A DNA stretch of 64,000 nucleotides, taken from Salmonella enterica subsp. enterica serovar Choleraesuis (GTDB lineage Bacteria; Pseudomonadota; Gammaproteobacteria; Enterobacterales; Enterobacteriaceae). Position 1 is the stretch's first letter, and each line of letters opens with the position of its first letter. A program made the position numbers and the translations under genes. This document shows, piece after piece, positions 48,598 to 53,080 of this stretch. Below the pieces are notes generated by a model. The model did not search any database. It was not told the DNA's origin and saw only the letters and a list, made by a program, of their open reading frames with translations. Location: the NCBI GenBank assembly GCA_022846635.1, contig AP025685.1:2604001-2668000 (forward strand), in the 5' to 3' direction.

Positions 48598-48605
48598 ATC
48601 AGATA

Positions 48606-48667
48606 TGGCGGAAGCGCAGAGATTCGAACTCTGGGAGGGTTTCCCCTCGCCGGTTTTCAAGACCGGT
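48606..48667 (-). other. attR: displaced 3' fragment of tRNA-Ser(UGA)
   Basis: Read on the minus strand, these 62 bases match tRNA-Ser(UGA) from the anticodon arm (ACCGGTCTTGAAAACCGG, anticodon TGA) through the variable arm and T-loop GTTCGAATC to the encoded CCA. The upstream half of the tRNA (acceptor 5' strand and D-arm) is missing and replaced by AT-rich phage sequence. This is the classic footprint of a phage integrated into a tRNA gene; the rebuilt whole tRNA should lie at the far prophage end beside an integrase, outside the window. Confidence 0.9.
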
Positions 48668-48797: not shown

Positions 48798-49193
48798 CTA
48801 AATCACTGGTACATCATCAAACTCGCCGTCAGTCGCGTTGTTGATGATGTACCGGATAACCCCAAAAATTCCATCATCTGTTCCGGCCGCCCCATCATCA
48901 TAGCTAGGCACACTGTCCCACCGATCAGGGCTATCCAGATGCTCGAGCCGTGGCGCCGGGTTCAGCCGCAGCACACGAACATGAAATTCACCGCGGAGCT
49001 GGCATACGACCAGCGAGCCAGAGCATGGGCGTCGTCCGCTATCGATAACCAGAATTGCGCCCTGCTGAATACCGTGGCGCCAGCTAGTCGCGCCGGCGCG
49101 CATGAAATACGTTGCTGTGCGGCTCAGCCCCAACATGCCGTCCAGAGACAGGCGCGACTCCGCATAGTCTGCCGCGGGTGATGGAAACCCCAT
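48798..49193 (-). CDS. UmuD'-like (HumD-type) SOS protein, Ser kept, catalytic Lys replaced
   Basis: A 131-residue protein of the LexA/UmuD S24 fold. It begins MGFPSPAADYAESRLSLDG, matching UmuD from Gly25, the first residue after RecA-assisted self-cleavage, so it is made in already processed form, like HumD of phage P1. UmuD Ser60 is kept (GATSWRHG) but the Lys97 position reads FHVRVLRL, with Arg. ATG at 49193 is preferred to the longer frame from 49259 because GGAGGG lies 7 bases ahead. It overlaps nothing essential and starts at the end of the 79-residue gene, with which it shares the LexA box at 49454. Role inferred: partner of host UmuC or modulator of the SOS response. Confidence 0.82.
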   Translation of the reverse strand: MGFPSPAADYAESRLSLDGMLGLSRTATYFMRAGATSWRHGIQQGAILVIDSGRRPCSGSLVVCQLRGEFHVRVLRLNPAPRLEHLDSPDRWDSVPSYDDGAAGTDDGIFGVIRYIINNATDGEFDDVPVI

Positions 49194-49194
49194 A

Positions 49195-49434
49195 TCAGAG
49201 CCCTCCATTTGGATTGAAAACCATAAACAGGCGCTCCTCGCCTTCATGCGGCGAGACATCCTTAAACGTGTCCACGCTGTTTTCTATCCAGCGGTTAGCG
49301 TCACGCAGACTGTAGTGCCAGTTTCTGGCGGCCAGCTCCCGGACAAAATCGCAGGTGCTAACTGTTTTACGTCCGTTAGGCTCTATGACGATGGCAGCCC
49401 GAAACGCTAGCTCTATTTCATAATAACGGGGCAT
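49195..49434 (-). CDS. Small conserved prophage protein upstream of the UmuD'-like gene
   Basis: A 79-residue protein (MPRYYEIELAFRAAIVIEP, FVRELAARNWHYSLRDANRWI, FVFNP-type end). I recognise it only as a type of small protein that recurs beside UmuD-like genes in enterobacterial prophages; its function is unknown. ATG at 49434 is preferred to 49455 because GGAGGG lies 6 bases ahead. It lies 19 bases downstream of a LexA box and its stop overlaps the UmuD'-like gene region, so the pair is one SOS-controlled unit. Confidence 0.78.
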   Translation of the reverse strand: MPRYYEIELAFRAAIVIEPNGRKTVSTCDFVRELAARNWHYSLRDANRWIENSVDTFKDVSPHEGEERLFMVFNPNGGL

Positions 49435-49453
49435 AATCAGCCCTCCGATAAAC

Positions 49454-49472
49454 ACTGATTATATATACAGTA
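49454..49472 (-). promoter_or_regulatory. LexA (SOS) box
   Basis: TACTGTATATATAATCAGT on the minus strand, that is CTGT-N8-TCAG, one base off the CTGT-N8-ACAG core and with the extended TACTGTATATA half perfect. It sits 19 bases before the first gene of the two-gene unit. Confidence 0.85.
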
Positions 49473-49541: not shown

Positions 49542-50105
49542 TTAATTTTCCCCGTCCAGACAGTCCAAGTGCCGGTAAATTGTGTTCACGTGAACACCAA
49601 AAATCCCCGCCAGCTGACTGGCTGGCACGCCGTTGCCGGCCAGGGCTTTTAGCTGCTCGCGCTGACATTCTGATATTTTCCGAGGCCGCCCACCATACCG
49701 CCCCCTCTCCCGCGCCGCCTCCAGCCCTGCCAGGGTCCGCTCGATTATCAGTTCACGTTCCATTTCTGCAAGGCTCGCCATCACGTGAAAAAAGAACCGG
49801 CCAGCGGCCGTGCTGGTGTTTATCGAATCGGTGAGGCTGTGGAATTGGGCGCCGCGGGCCTGGATATCGCCTACCAGCCCCACCAGGTCTTTCATGCTTC
49901 GCCCCAGCCGGTCCAGTTTCCAGACCACCAATGTGTCGCCGTCCGCCAGCCGCCGCATGGCCCGTCGCAGGCCTGGGCGCTTCTTCGTCGATTTACCGCT
50001 AGCCGAGCCCTCATAAATCTGGTCACAACCTGCGCTAATCAGCGCATTTCTCTGTAAATCCGGATTCTGGTCCCGCGTTGAGACGCGGATATAACCGATC
50101 TGCAT
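49542..50105 (-). CDS. Serine DNA invertase (Gin/Pin/Hin family)
   Basis: A 187-residue small serine recombinase, very similar to Gin. The catalytic Ser9 lies in IGYIRVSTRDQNPDLQRNAL, followed by VVWKLDRLGRSMKDL, SLTDSINTSTAAGRFFFHVMASLAEMERELIIERT (dimer helix) and a C-terminal helix-turn-helix (VPASQLAGIFGVHVNTIYRHL). It lies directly next to the inverted-repeat segment carrying two tail-fibre genes and should invert it with Fis. It reads leftward, 46 bases beyond the segment edge. Confidence 0.96.
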   Translation of the reverse strand: MQIGYIRVSTRDQNPDLQRNALISAGCDQIYEGSASGKSTKKRPGLRRAMRRLADGDTLVVWKLDRLGRSMKDLVGLVGDIQARGAQFHSLTDSINTSTAAGRFFFHVMASLAEMERELIIERTLAGLEAARERGRYGGRPRKISECQREQLKALAGNGVPASQLAGIFGVHVNTIYRHLDCLDGEN

Positions 50106-50150
50106 TTTCTAACTCCATGAAAATACAGAATTAAGCCATACCCAACCTCA

Positions 50151-50172
50151 ACCAAAAACGACCGTTTTTGAG
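50151..50172. promoter_or_regulatory. Left crossover site candidate (hix/gix-like)
   Basis: CCAAAAACGACCGTTTTTGA is a near-perfect dyad around the central dinucleotide AC (50161-50162). The half CGTTTTTGA resembles the GGTTTTTGATAA half-site of hixL. Inverted homology with the other copy ends exactly at the outer half-site, as expected if strand exchange takes place here. Confidence 0.7.
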
Positions 50173-50197
50173 AGAGCGCCTATTCGGCGCTTTTTTT
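50173..50197 (+). terminator. Terminator in the leader of the plus-strand tail-fibre gene
   Basis: AGCGCC and GGCGCT with loop TATTC, then seven T, lying between the crossover site and the GGAG ribosome site at 50200. Confidence 0.85.
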
Positions 50198-50211
50198 ATG
50201 GAGAAAATTCA

Positions 50212-51708
50212 ATGTCCATGTACGAAACCGGGACCATTACCGCGGCTAAAAACTCGACTACTATCACCGGCAGCGGCACCGCCTGGCTGGATAAAAAATT
50301 TGGCATCAGCCCGCAGTGCGTCCTGGTTATCCGCGGCGCCGGCACGGTGGATATGTACGCCATCCAGCGGGTGGACAGCAACACCCAGCTGACGGTCACG
50401 CGCCCGATCGCCACTGCCGTCACCGGTGCCGGCTACGGCATCATCGTCGCTGAGTCTATGTCCGTGCAGGCATGGGCTAACCAGCTGGCCGCCAGCAGCA
50501 ACTACACCCAGAGCCTGCTCGACAGCATCCAGACCGTCATGACCGGTACCGGCTCCGTGGTCCTCACCGCCCCGAACGGCCAGCAAACCACCGTCAGCTC
50601 GTTTAAAAAACTCACCGACGATATGGGGAAAAAACTTGAGTCCGGCGATTTTGGTTTAGGTACAGATATAACGGAGGGAACAAACGTTCCGGGCTGGGGC
50701 GTGGTCAGCAATACTTTGGCGCGAATGCCAACAGGTTTTTATAACGGACTGGCTGGCAACTGGGGGAATCCTCCCGGCGCTGGCTCAACTCAACGGCTAA
50801 AAATGATCAACGTGTCAGCTGATGGTGGATGGGGTACACAAATAGGGACAGCTGATGGGCCGACTGGCGGGAAAATGTGGTTACGTTGCCGATATAACAG
50901 CGTTTATAGCGACTGGGACCAAATCCTGACTCAATCTCAAACCGGGTGGGGGGTCTACAGCCCGGCCAGTCTTGGCCCCAGAGCGACAAATGCCACTGAT
51001 TTGCCGTCAGGATTATACTGGGGCGCCGGTAATGATATTGGAACTCCGGGAGGGGTAACCGTCGGGGGATTTAGTATTCTCCAGTTGACGGGGAACAGCC
51101 CTATGTATCGCTGCCAGCTGGCATTTCAGGATGGCGGCGGCGGGCGGATATACATCCGATCCACAGTCACAGGCGCATGGGCATCCAATGGATGGCTCTC
51201 TATTTACACTACCGGCAATACCACAAAATCCAGCGACGGCACGCTAAAAGCGGCGTCGCCGGTTTGCCGGATAGTCTCTTCTCAGGCTGATTGCTCGCGG
51301 GATGATGTTGATGAAGCTGGTTTTACGTGGTGTGGTAGCGGAACGGCTAACAGCGAGGCTGAAGGAATTACTATCAACCGGGAGGGCATGGGGGTTTACA
51401 GCATAACCGGTGCCCGGTCGCTGGCGATAGAGGGCTGGCAGCTGCTACCGCCGCGCAACCCTCAGGGTGGGGATGATTTGGGGGTTGTTACGGCAGAGCA
51501 GCAGGACGGGAAAATATTTATCCGACTGTTCCGCCGCAAAATGATTCTGGAGGATGGGGAAATTCATGTTGTCGCCGGCGAGCCTATCGATGTACCAGCC
51601 AGCAGCTGGATCGATGTCCGCCTGACAATGCCTGATGATTCGATATTCAATCGGCAGCAGGCACAATCTCAGGATGCTCAGGCCCAGACTCAACCTCAGG
51701 CATATTAA
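50212..51708 (+). CDS. Tail-fibre protein, currently silent orientation
   Basis: A 498-residue tail fibre. Residues 1-138 are identical to the opposed fibre (MSMYETGTITAAKNSTTITG through SSFKKLTDD), the part that should join the tail. The centre (about 145-345) is unique, rich in Gly/Ser/Trp and receptor-binding in style. A C-terminal part about 150 residues long (NTTKSSDGTLKAASPV, EGITINREGMGVYSITG, GEPIDVPASSWIDVRL) is homologous to but diverged from the other fibre. It ends in a Gln/Ala-rich tail. It has its own GGAG site but reads against the late operon, so it should be off until the segment flips. Its last 62 bases overlap the other gene antisense. Confidence 0.88.
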   Translation: MSMYETGTITAAKNSTTITGSGTAWLDKKFGISPQCVLVIRGAGTVDMYAIQRVDSNTQLTVTRPIATAVTGAGYGIIVAESMSVQAWANQLAASSNYTQSLLDSIQTVMTGTGSVVLTAPNGQQTTVSSFKKLTDDMGKKLESGDFGLGTDITEGTNVPGWGVVSNTLARMPTGFYNGLAGNWGNPPGAGSTQRLKMINVSADGGWGTQIGTADGPTGGKMWLRCRYNSVYSDWDQILTQSQTGWGVYSPASLGPRATNATDLPSGLYWGAGNDIGTPGGVTVGGFSILQLTGNSPMYRCQLAFQDGGGGRIYIRSTVTGAWASNGWLSIYTTGNTTKSSDGTLKAASPVCRIVSSQADCSRDDVDEAGFTWCGSGTANSEAEGITINREGMGVYSITGARSLAIEGWQLLPPRNPQGGDDLGVVTAEQQDGKIFIRLFRRKMILEDGEIHVVAGEPIDVPASSWIDVRLTMPDDSIFNRQQAQSQDAQAQTQPQAY

Positions 51709-53080
51709 CCCGCACGCTGACAAACTGATCGGCGGGGATATCTATCGGGTCTCCGTCGTTCAGCCCCTCAATCTCATTGCGGGCAAATACCGGTGCCGCC
51801 GGATGCATTCGGTGGTAGGTTTTGACGAGCACCGAGCCGTCAGCATTCACCTCGTAATCGAGCCAGACCAGCGGCTGCCGGTTGCGGTCGGTTGGTATGT
51901 CAAACCCGCCATCAATCCCGCCCCATGCAGCATCGGAGTTTAGCCCGAAACAACCGTTAACCAGGTACTGACCAACGCCCTGCCGCTCAACTGATACCCC
52001 CTCAGATTCACCGTTGGTTTCATACCGGCCGTCGCTGAAAATTTTCACGACCGGAGATGCCGCTTTGAGCGTGCCGTCGCTGGCTTTGGTGGTATTCGCT
52101 GTCGACCAGACCCTATCATTTCCCTCAAAAAAATTGCCACCGAAATGGTAAAATCCAGACGCAGAAAACCCCGCCAATTTCACCACCTTCACCCCGTTTT
52201 CTGGGGTTGTTGTGCCCCATAGAAATGTTGAGGTACCACGCGTATAGTTTGCCGTCGGAACGACAACCGAAACGTCCTCTCTGACAATAATATCAACTGG
52301 AAATGCTCCGCCATCCACATAGAATGCACCGAACGAGTCTCCCTCATAGCCTCGCCATAATGAATCTATAGCAACCTCACCGGAGTTGTACCGCCAGTAC
52401 GTCCCGCTAACCTGGCTGCCTAAATCTGTCCATCCTCCAAACGATACATCCCCGGCAAATGAGCAGTTATTCATAGGGTCATTACCCGGAGCAGTTCTAG
52501 TGCTAATGCTCACCTTGGTTTTAGATCTGGCACCCAGCAGAATGATGGGATATAGAAGCCCGGTCCGAGCCCCCGTCGGGGCACTCAGCGTGTATTTTTG
52601 GTAACCAATTTTATTATTTACATCATTGGTGAGTTGGATCAGCGCACTTTGAGACGCTTTAGTTGCCATATCGTCGGTGAGTTTTTTAAACGAGCTGACG
52701 GTGGTTTGCTGGCCGTTCGGGGCGGTGAGGACCACGGAGCCGGTACCGGTCATGACGGTCTGGATGCTGTCGAGCAGGCTCTGGGTGTAGTTGCTGCTGG
52801 CGGCCAGCTGGTTAGCCCATGCCTGCACGGACATAGACTCAGCGACGATGATGCCGTAGCCGGCACCGGTGACGGCAGTGGCGATCGGGCGCGTGACCGT
52901 CAGCTGGGTGTTGCTGTCCACCCGCTGGATGGCGTACATATCCACCGTGCCGGCGCCGCGGATAACCAGGACGCACTGCGGGCTGATGCCAAATTTTTTA
53001 TCCAGCCAGGCGGTGCCGCTGCCGGTGATAGTAGTCGAGTTTTTAGCCGCGGTAATGGTCCCGGTTTCGTACATGGACAT
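51647..53080 (-). CDS. Tail-fibre protein, currently expressed orientation
   Basis: A 477-residue tail fibre, in line with the late tail operon. N-terminal 138 residues are shared with the opposed gene. The central region (about 140-320) is different, with VNNKIGYQKYTLSAPTGA and YRRGYEGDSFGAFYVDGG-type beta-rich stretches. The C-terminal region resembles that of the other fibre (NTTKASDGTLKAASPV, EGVSVERQGVGQYLVNG, GDPIDIPADQFVSVRV). It would bind the bacterial surface receptor. The leader contains a terminator between crossover site and ribosome site, so expression should depend on antiterminated late transcription. No tail-fibre assembly gene accompanies it in the window. Confidence 0.88.
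   Translation of the reverse strand: MSMYETGTITAAKNSTTITGSGTAWLDKKFGISPQCVLVIRGAGTVDMYAIQRVDSNTQLTVTRPIATAVTGAGYGIIVAESMSVQAWANQLAASSNYTQSLLDSIQTVMTGTGSVVLTAPNGQQTTVSSFKKLTDDMATKASQSALIQLTNDVNNKIGYQKYTLSAPTGARTGLLYPIILLGARSKTKVSISTRTAPGNDPMNNCSFAGDVSFGGWTDLGSQVSGTYWRYNSGEVAIDSLWRGYEGDSFGAFYVDGGAFPVDIIVREDVSVVVPTANYTRGTSTFLWGTTTPENGVKVVKLAGFSASGFYHFGGNFFEGNDRVWSTANTTKASDGTLKAASPVVKIFSDGRYETNGESEGVSVERQGVGQYLVNGCFGLNSDAAWGGIDGGFDIPTDRNRQPLVWLDYEVNADGSVLVKTYHRMHPAAPVFARNEIEGLNDGDPIDIPADQFVSVRVNMPEVESGPEHPEIVPAAD

Follow-up and report, generated by a model that had tools for sequence, protein, structure and literature searches.

A prophage unit of Salmonella enterica serovar Choleraesuis with a LexA box, a cleavage-free UmuD'-like protein of the HumD family and an uncharacterised partner

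Among described systems, the nearest tested relative of the locus analysed here is HumD of phage P1, whose record marks a LexA site upstream of humD and carries the note 'functionally complements E. coli UmuD'', and which is named a functional UmuD' homologue in titles cited by two articles (PMC4713147, PMC7092418). P1 HumD, as well as N15 gp26 and phiKO2 gp23, begins at the position of UmuD Gly25, comprises about 130 residues, ends in an EFDDxPV tail and has a LexA box upstream and no adjoining umuC, all of which also applies to the protein studied here. At the positions of UmuD Ser60 and Lys97, however, P1 HumD carries Ser and Lys, whereas the protein studied here has probably Thr and Arg, respectively, and P1 and N15 lack the small gene, hereafter p79, that precedes humD in our locus. 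E. coli UmuD/UmuD' shares the fold and, in its processed form, the GFPSPAADY start; in comparison with UmuD, the protein described here has no N-terminal arm, no Cys24-Gly25 site, an active-site region shorter by one residue and an altered catalytic dyad. The two-gene order itself occurs in phage HK140 (gp27-gp28) and in the Erwinia phage Midgardsormr38 (gp33-gp34), where the pair likewise follows a tail fibre gene, has a LexA box and lies on the integrase/attP side. HK140 shows the order tail fibre, p79, umuD, attP and integrase, as in the prophage considered here, although its p79 is merely 34% identical to ours, whereas the partner in Midgardsormr38 is not a full HumD but a shortened form of 107 residues (mini-HumD).

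The window, a stretch of 64,000 nucleotides from Salmonella enterica subsp. enterica serovar Choleraesuis, contains such a pair on its minus strand in the order LexA box, p79 and HumD (Table 1), in agreement with the initial annotation of a two-gene unit in which a 79-residue gene is followed by a UmuD homologue. A single base separates the two genes, and GGAGGGCTCTGATATG, a good ribosome-binding site (Shine-Dalgarno), precedes the HumD start MGFPSPAADY. The unit begins within a prophage, approximately 130 bases from its attachment end. From the attachment repeats, the prophage measures about 47.7 kb, the second copy of the 65-bp repeat being located at G000:C1:2700252-2700316 in an intact tRNA-Ser adjoining an integrase gene. 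The part of the prophage within the window comprises what we take, from reading the genes, to be lambda/N15-like tail genes. Next to the unit, at 49542-53080, the invertase-like gene adjoins two tail-fibre genes in opposite orientation, which share their N-terminal 140 residues and differ at their ends; this arrangement resembles the invertible tail-fibre switches of Mu and P1.

Table 1. Features at the attachment end of the prophage (positions in the window)
Feature	Position	Strand	Basis
Prophage attachment repeat, left prophage end, 3' part of tRNA-Ser	48603..48667		65-bp perfect direct repeat
HumD, 131-residue UmuD'-like protein	48798..49193	-	NF051876, PHROG 811, UmuD' alignments, structure match
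p79, 79-residue protein	49195..49434	-	PHROG 3893, E 7e-33; predicted winged-helix
LexA box TACTGTATATATAATCAGTG	49453..49472	-	3 mismatches to 20-mer consensus, CTGT-N8-TCAG
DNA invertase-like resolvase, neighbour outside the unit	49542..50105	-	ORF and sequence

The UmuD'-like protein scores 160.4 bits against the NCBIfam HumD equivalog NF051876 (cut-off 120; residues 1-131 on positions 1-129) and 67.5 bits against the autoproteolytic UmuD subfamily NF007621, below the cut-off of 110. Over its full length it is 51-54% identical to P1 HumD, N15 gp26 and phiKO2 gp23, and 51-55% when further relatives are included; P1 HumD, chosen as the comparator at the outset, therefore proved to be an appropriate one. 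Its identity to E. coli UmuD is 36% by pairwise BLAST, the UmuD sequence used there, in a 16-sequence alignment and in the comparison of upstream frames being a manually entered copy, whereas profile alignment and structure comparison relied on solved UmuD/UmuD' chains. When the HumD family profile was searched against the PDB, UmuD' and UmuD chains ranked first (aligned to 1UMU/1I4V), and the AlphaFold2 model, which is confident in the core only (pLDDT 71.8), matched UmuD' 1AY9 with a Z of 11.6 over 104 residues (rmsd 4.2). The start exactly at UmuD Gly25 was as described, and this beginning (MGFPSP) is common to relatives of the protein. The Cys24-Gly25 cleavage site and the N-terminal arm are absent from the window HumD according to its sequence, the upstream frames and the alignment with relatives. 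A possible upstream start at 49259, which could have supplied an arm with a cleavage site, adds just codons overlapping p79 in another frame, and the in-frame stretches 5' of humD in relatives are unrelated and vary from 1 to 114 codons, so that no arm is hidden there. The median dN/dS of HumD among relatives is 0.08, indicating purifying selection.

With regard to the active site, the Ser60-Lys97 dyad of UmuD is not found in the window HumD. The position of Lys97 is occupied by Arg73 in the pairwise BLAST, in the family alignment and in the profile alignment to solved chains, including UmuD', as had been read from the sequence initially. Placing the equivalent of Ser60 hinges on one gap, the HumD family being one residue shorter there: alignment of the profile to UmuD' 1UMU and the 16-sequence alignment match Thr36 with Ser60 and Ser37 with Met61, whereas pairwise BLAST alone matches Ser37 with Ser60. 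From these alignments, the equivalent residue is most likely Thr36 rather than Ser37, and the initial view that Ser60 is kept is probably wrong. In an alignment of a clean set without partial or mis-framed sequences, the Ser60 column of the HumD family holds S, T, A or M, as would be expected if nothing is left to cleave. The dyad of the window HumD is altered and probably inert, a loss that costs nothing because the cleavage arm is missing throughout the HumD family. By the same token, there is nothing exceptional in a HumD without the catalytic lysine, since these proteins possess no arm that could be cleaved and the constraint on the Ser column has already been relaxed.

The LexA box deviates by one base from the CTGT-N8-ACAG core, as originally noted, and does lie 5' of p79, although its distance from the ATG is 18 bases (20 when measured from the 16-base core) and not 19. 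It is the sole such site in the window, where shuffled sequences gave 0, and a genome-wide scan (4.26 Mb) returned 10 sites compared with 0 in the reversed control. Host umuD is one of the genes behind these 10 boxes, and further ones are, as we recognise them from their translations, yebG, sulA, recA and recN; given these assignments, the box score picks out genuine SOS genes of the host. Elsewhere on the chromosome, a box with 2 mismatches that is nearly the same as that of the window (G000:C1:1985424-1985443) has no obvious SOS gene directly adjoining. In relatives of the unit, the box is kept 11-23 bases 5' of p79 (43 in one lineage), and a box with no more than 4 mismatches occurs at nearly all intact p79 loci among 154 distinct pairs of p79 and its next gene. 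Judged by the sequence of the box, the HumD/p79 unit is predicted to be LexA-controlled.

For the partner protein p79, Pfam and NCBIfam yielded no family at E values up to 10, and a comparison of its sequence with solved structures found nothing (best E 0.59). Its AlphaFold2 model (pLDDT 85) retrieved mostly winged helices in a fold search, but the matches are weak (best E 0.09, Z 6.7): Foldseek gave nothing below E 0.08, and a Z of about 6 is typical of a common arrangement. From the model, p79 is probably a small winged-helix protein, and among relatives its median dN/dS of 0.12 indicates purifying selection. Two other candidate identities at this locus were dropped. For p79, a DinI-like protein had no profile match in the Pfam/NCBIfam scans, and the 186-type SOS antirepressor Tum, suggested by position and LexA control, did not appear in library scans that gave clear HumD matches; Tum is also disfavoured by the full-length match to P1 HumD.

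Of 295 genomes from the same family, 41 contain the p79 gene, and among 72,556 plasmid records it occurs in 1,079; it is also present in the published phages HK140 and Midgardsormr38, where a UmuD'-like gene accompanies it. Across the 154 distinct pairs, the next gene encodes a mini-HumD in 93, a full HumD in 36, UmuC in 2 and a truncated copy in 1; the remaining 22 are mostly frameshifted, second copies or contig ends, and one of them (L185) is a full HumD missed by the pattern. The pairing is strict, with a start spacing of -4 to +3 bases. Not all HumDs need p79, because 69 humD loci and 6 intact mini-HumD loci with a LexA box lack it. In some relatives, the unit is disrupted by frameshifts or insertion elements. 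In some Klebsiella-type phage contigs, a further p79 copy that has diverged (33-35% identical) lies 1-2 kb 5' of the first one (L044:829-1065, L037:1671-1886, L036:1481-1696), and on a Pantoea plasmid (NZ_CP134740.1, L297) a diverged p79 has a LexA box and no UmuD-like gene after it.

Mini-HumDs comprise 100-109 residues and retain GFPSPA-DY, the C-terminal strand and the acidic tail, whereas the lysine and the stretch surrounding Ser60, and with them the peptidase core, are lost; their median dN/dS of 0.12 indicates purifying selection. That proteins with the same partner have lost this core suggests that the conserved job of the pair may depend on the GFPSPA end rather than the entire UmuD' fold. 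In two Pantoea-type prophages (L171:4004-5798 and L190), a complete umuC (421 aa) directly follows p79 with a 4-base overlap; genome G239 contains two copies of the p79-umuC arrangement. Since the C-terminal part of a mini-HumD remains 3' of umuC in L171 and L190, it seems that umuC has taken the place of the front part of a mini-HumD there. This adjacency links p79 with polymerase V solely through gene position.

One of the plasmids, the IncX3 plasmid NZ_MK033583.1 (46,161 bp), which is of the blaNDM type, was inspected as an example. Its pair (L296:2501-3099) resembles that of the window in having a p79 that is about 61% identical and followed by a UmuD'-like gene, whereas its LexA box is split by an ISL3 element; umuD of IncX3 blaNDM plasmids has been described as split by the blaNDM IS26 unit (PMC6158458). 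ISKox3-like ISL3 elements (1315-1316 bp) were located inside LexA boxes in several loci (L296:1139-2478, L294:2143-3482, L007:1642-2981 and L299-L348). Among 49 distinct left-end junctions drawn from viral contigs, genomes of the family and the loci of the present analysis, 35 show CTGT precisely in phase, where chance predicts 1 in 256. Of 21 copies for which both ends were available, 18 have the structure CTGT-[8-base duplication]-IS-[same 8 bases]-ACAG. The 8-base repeat ATATGCAT published for ISL3 in IncX3 NDM plasmids (PMC6158458) is an instance of this insertion pattern. No earlier report of an insertion element targeting SOS operators or LexA boxes was found in the literature searched, and such targeting by ISL3 merits separate study.

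Taken together, the unit is best read, with a probability of roughly two in three, as a prophage SOS operon supplying a cleavage-independent UmuD' for host UmuC. According to this model, LexA would repress the unit, and DNA damage would lead to the production of p79 and HumD; the latter, made without an N-terminal arm, would form UmuD'-type dimers at once and, together with host UmuC, yield error-prone polymerase V without RecA-driven self-cleavage, thereby aiding replication across lesions upon prophage induction or host damage. p79, as a co-induced accessory in this pathway, would probably target nucleic acid or the polymerase V complex. A partner for HumD exists, as host umuDC is intact: umuD (G000:C1:2246.5k) carries a LexA box of its own and retains the C-G cleavage site as well as Ser and Lys, with an intact umuC alongside, and the second host Y-family gene is presumably dinB. 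UmuC pairing and mutagenesis by the window HumD would follow by analogy with P1 HumD. The proposal in the initial annotation of an SOS-induced UmuD' that needs no RecA cleavage thus persists as the best reading, on the basis of the HumD score, the box and the P1 analogy, whereas the weight it had put on the loss of the lysine does not. However, the host already has UmuD, and the added benefit of HumD is not obvious.

The same host genes leave room for HumD to be mainly a damper, which would titrate host UmuD/UmuD' or UmuC, or act on RecA filaments, and so restrain mutagenesis or recombination during induction: with UmuDC intact, heterodimers are possible, and mini-HumDs, with GFPSPA and a UmuD-like C-terminal strand and without the Ser-Lys core, look like binding modules. 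This alternative is rather unlikely, given that P1 HumD is reported as a functional UmuD'. Considerably less probable is that p79 and HumD form a split, uncleavable DNA-binding regulator of the LexA/CI type that sets phage gene expression during SOS. The predicted winged helix of p79, the C-terminal fold that HumD shares with LexA/CI and the strict pairing would all be compatible with it, but the fold matches of p79 are weak, many HumDs (those of P1 and N15 included) and the six mini-HumD loci do without p79, and two prophages pair p79 with umuC instead. The lowest probability, slightly below that of a split regulator, is given to a neutral passenger or decaying remnant; the frameshifted and insertion-broken relatives point in this direction, whereas the dN/dS values of about 0.1 for p79, mini-HumD and HumD, along with the retention of LexA box, spacing and starts, argue against it.

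Apart from its altered dyad, the window HumD is an ordinary member of its family, and the two-gene SOS unit to which it belongs is widespread though little described. The new part of the finding is the partner p79 and its spread, not the lysine change. Any role of p79 is suggested by its neighbourhood and predicted fold only. As a tentative and somewhat doubtful extension of the polymerase V reading, p79 may be an undescribed SOS-induced polymerase V accessory in a portable module carried by phages and conjugative plasmids, which, with UmuD'-like proteins that need no peptidase core, redirects the host error-prone polymerase or its regulation. More generally, enterobacterial prophages and plasmids, including IncX3 blaNDM plasmids, commonly carry LexA-controlled genes for a UmuD' that needs no cleavage, and the uncharacterised partner p79, together with the shortened UmuD' form that lacks a peptidase core, could reveal the part of UmuD' on which polymerase V depends.
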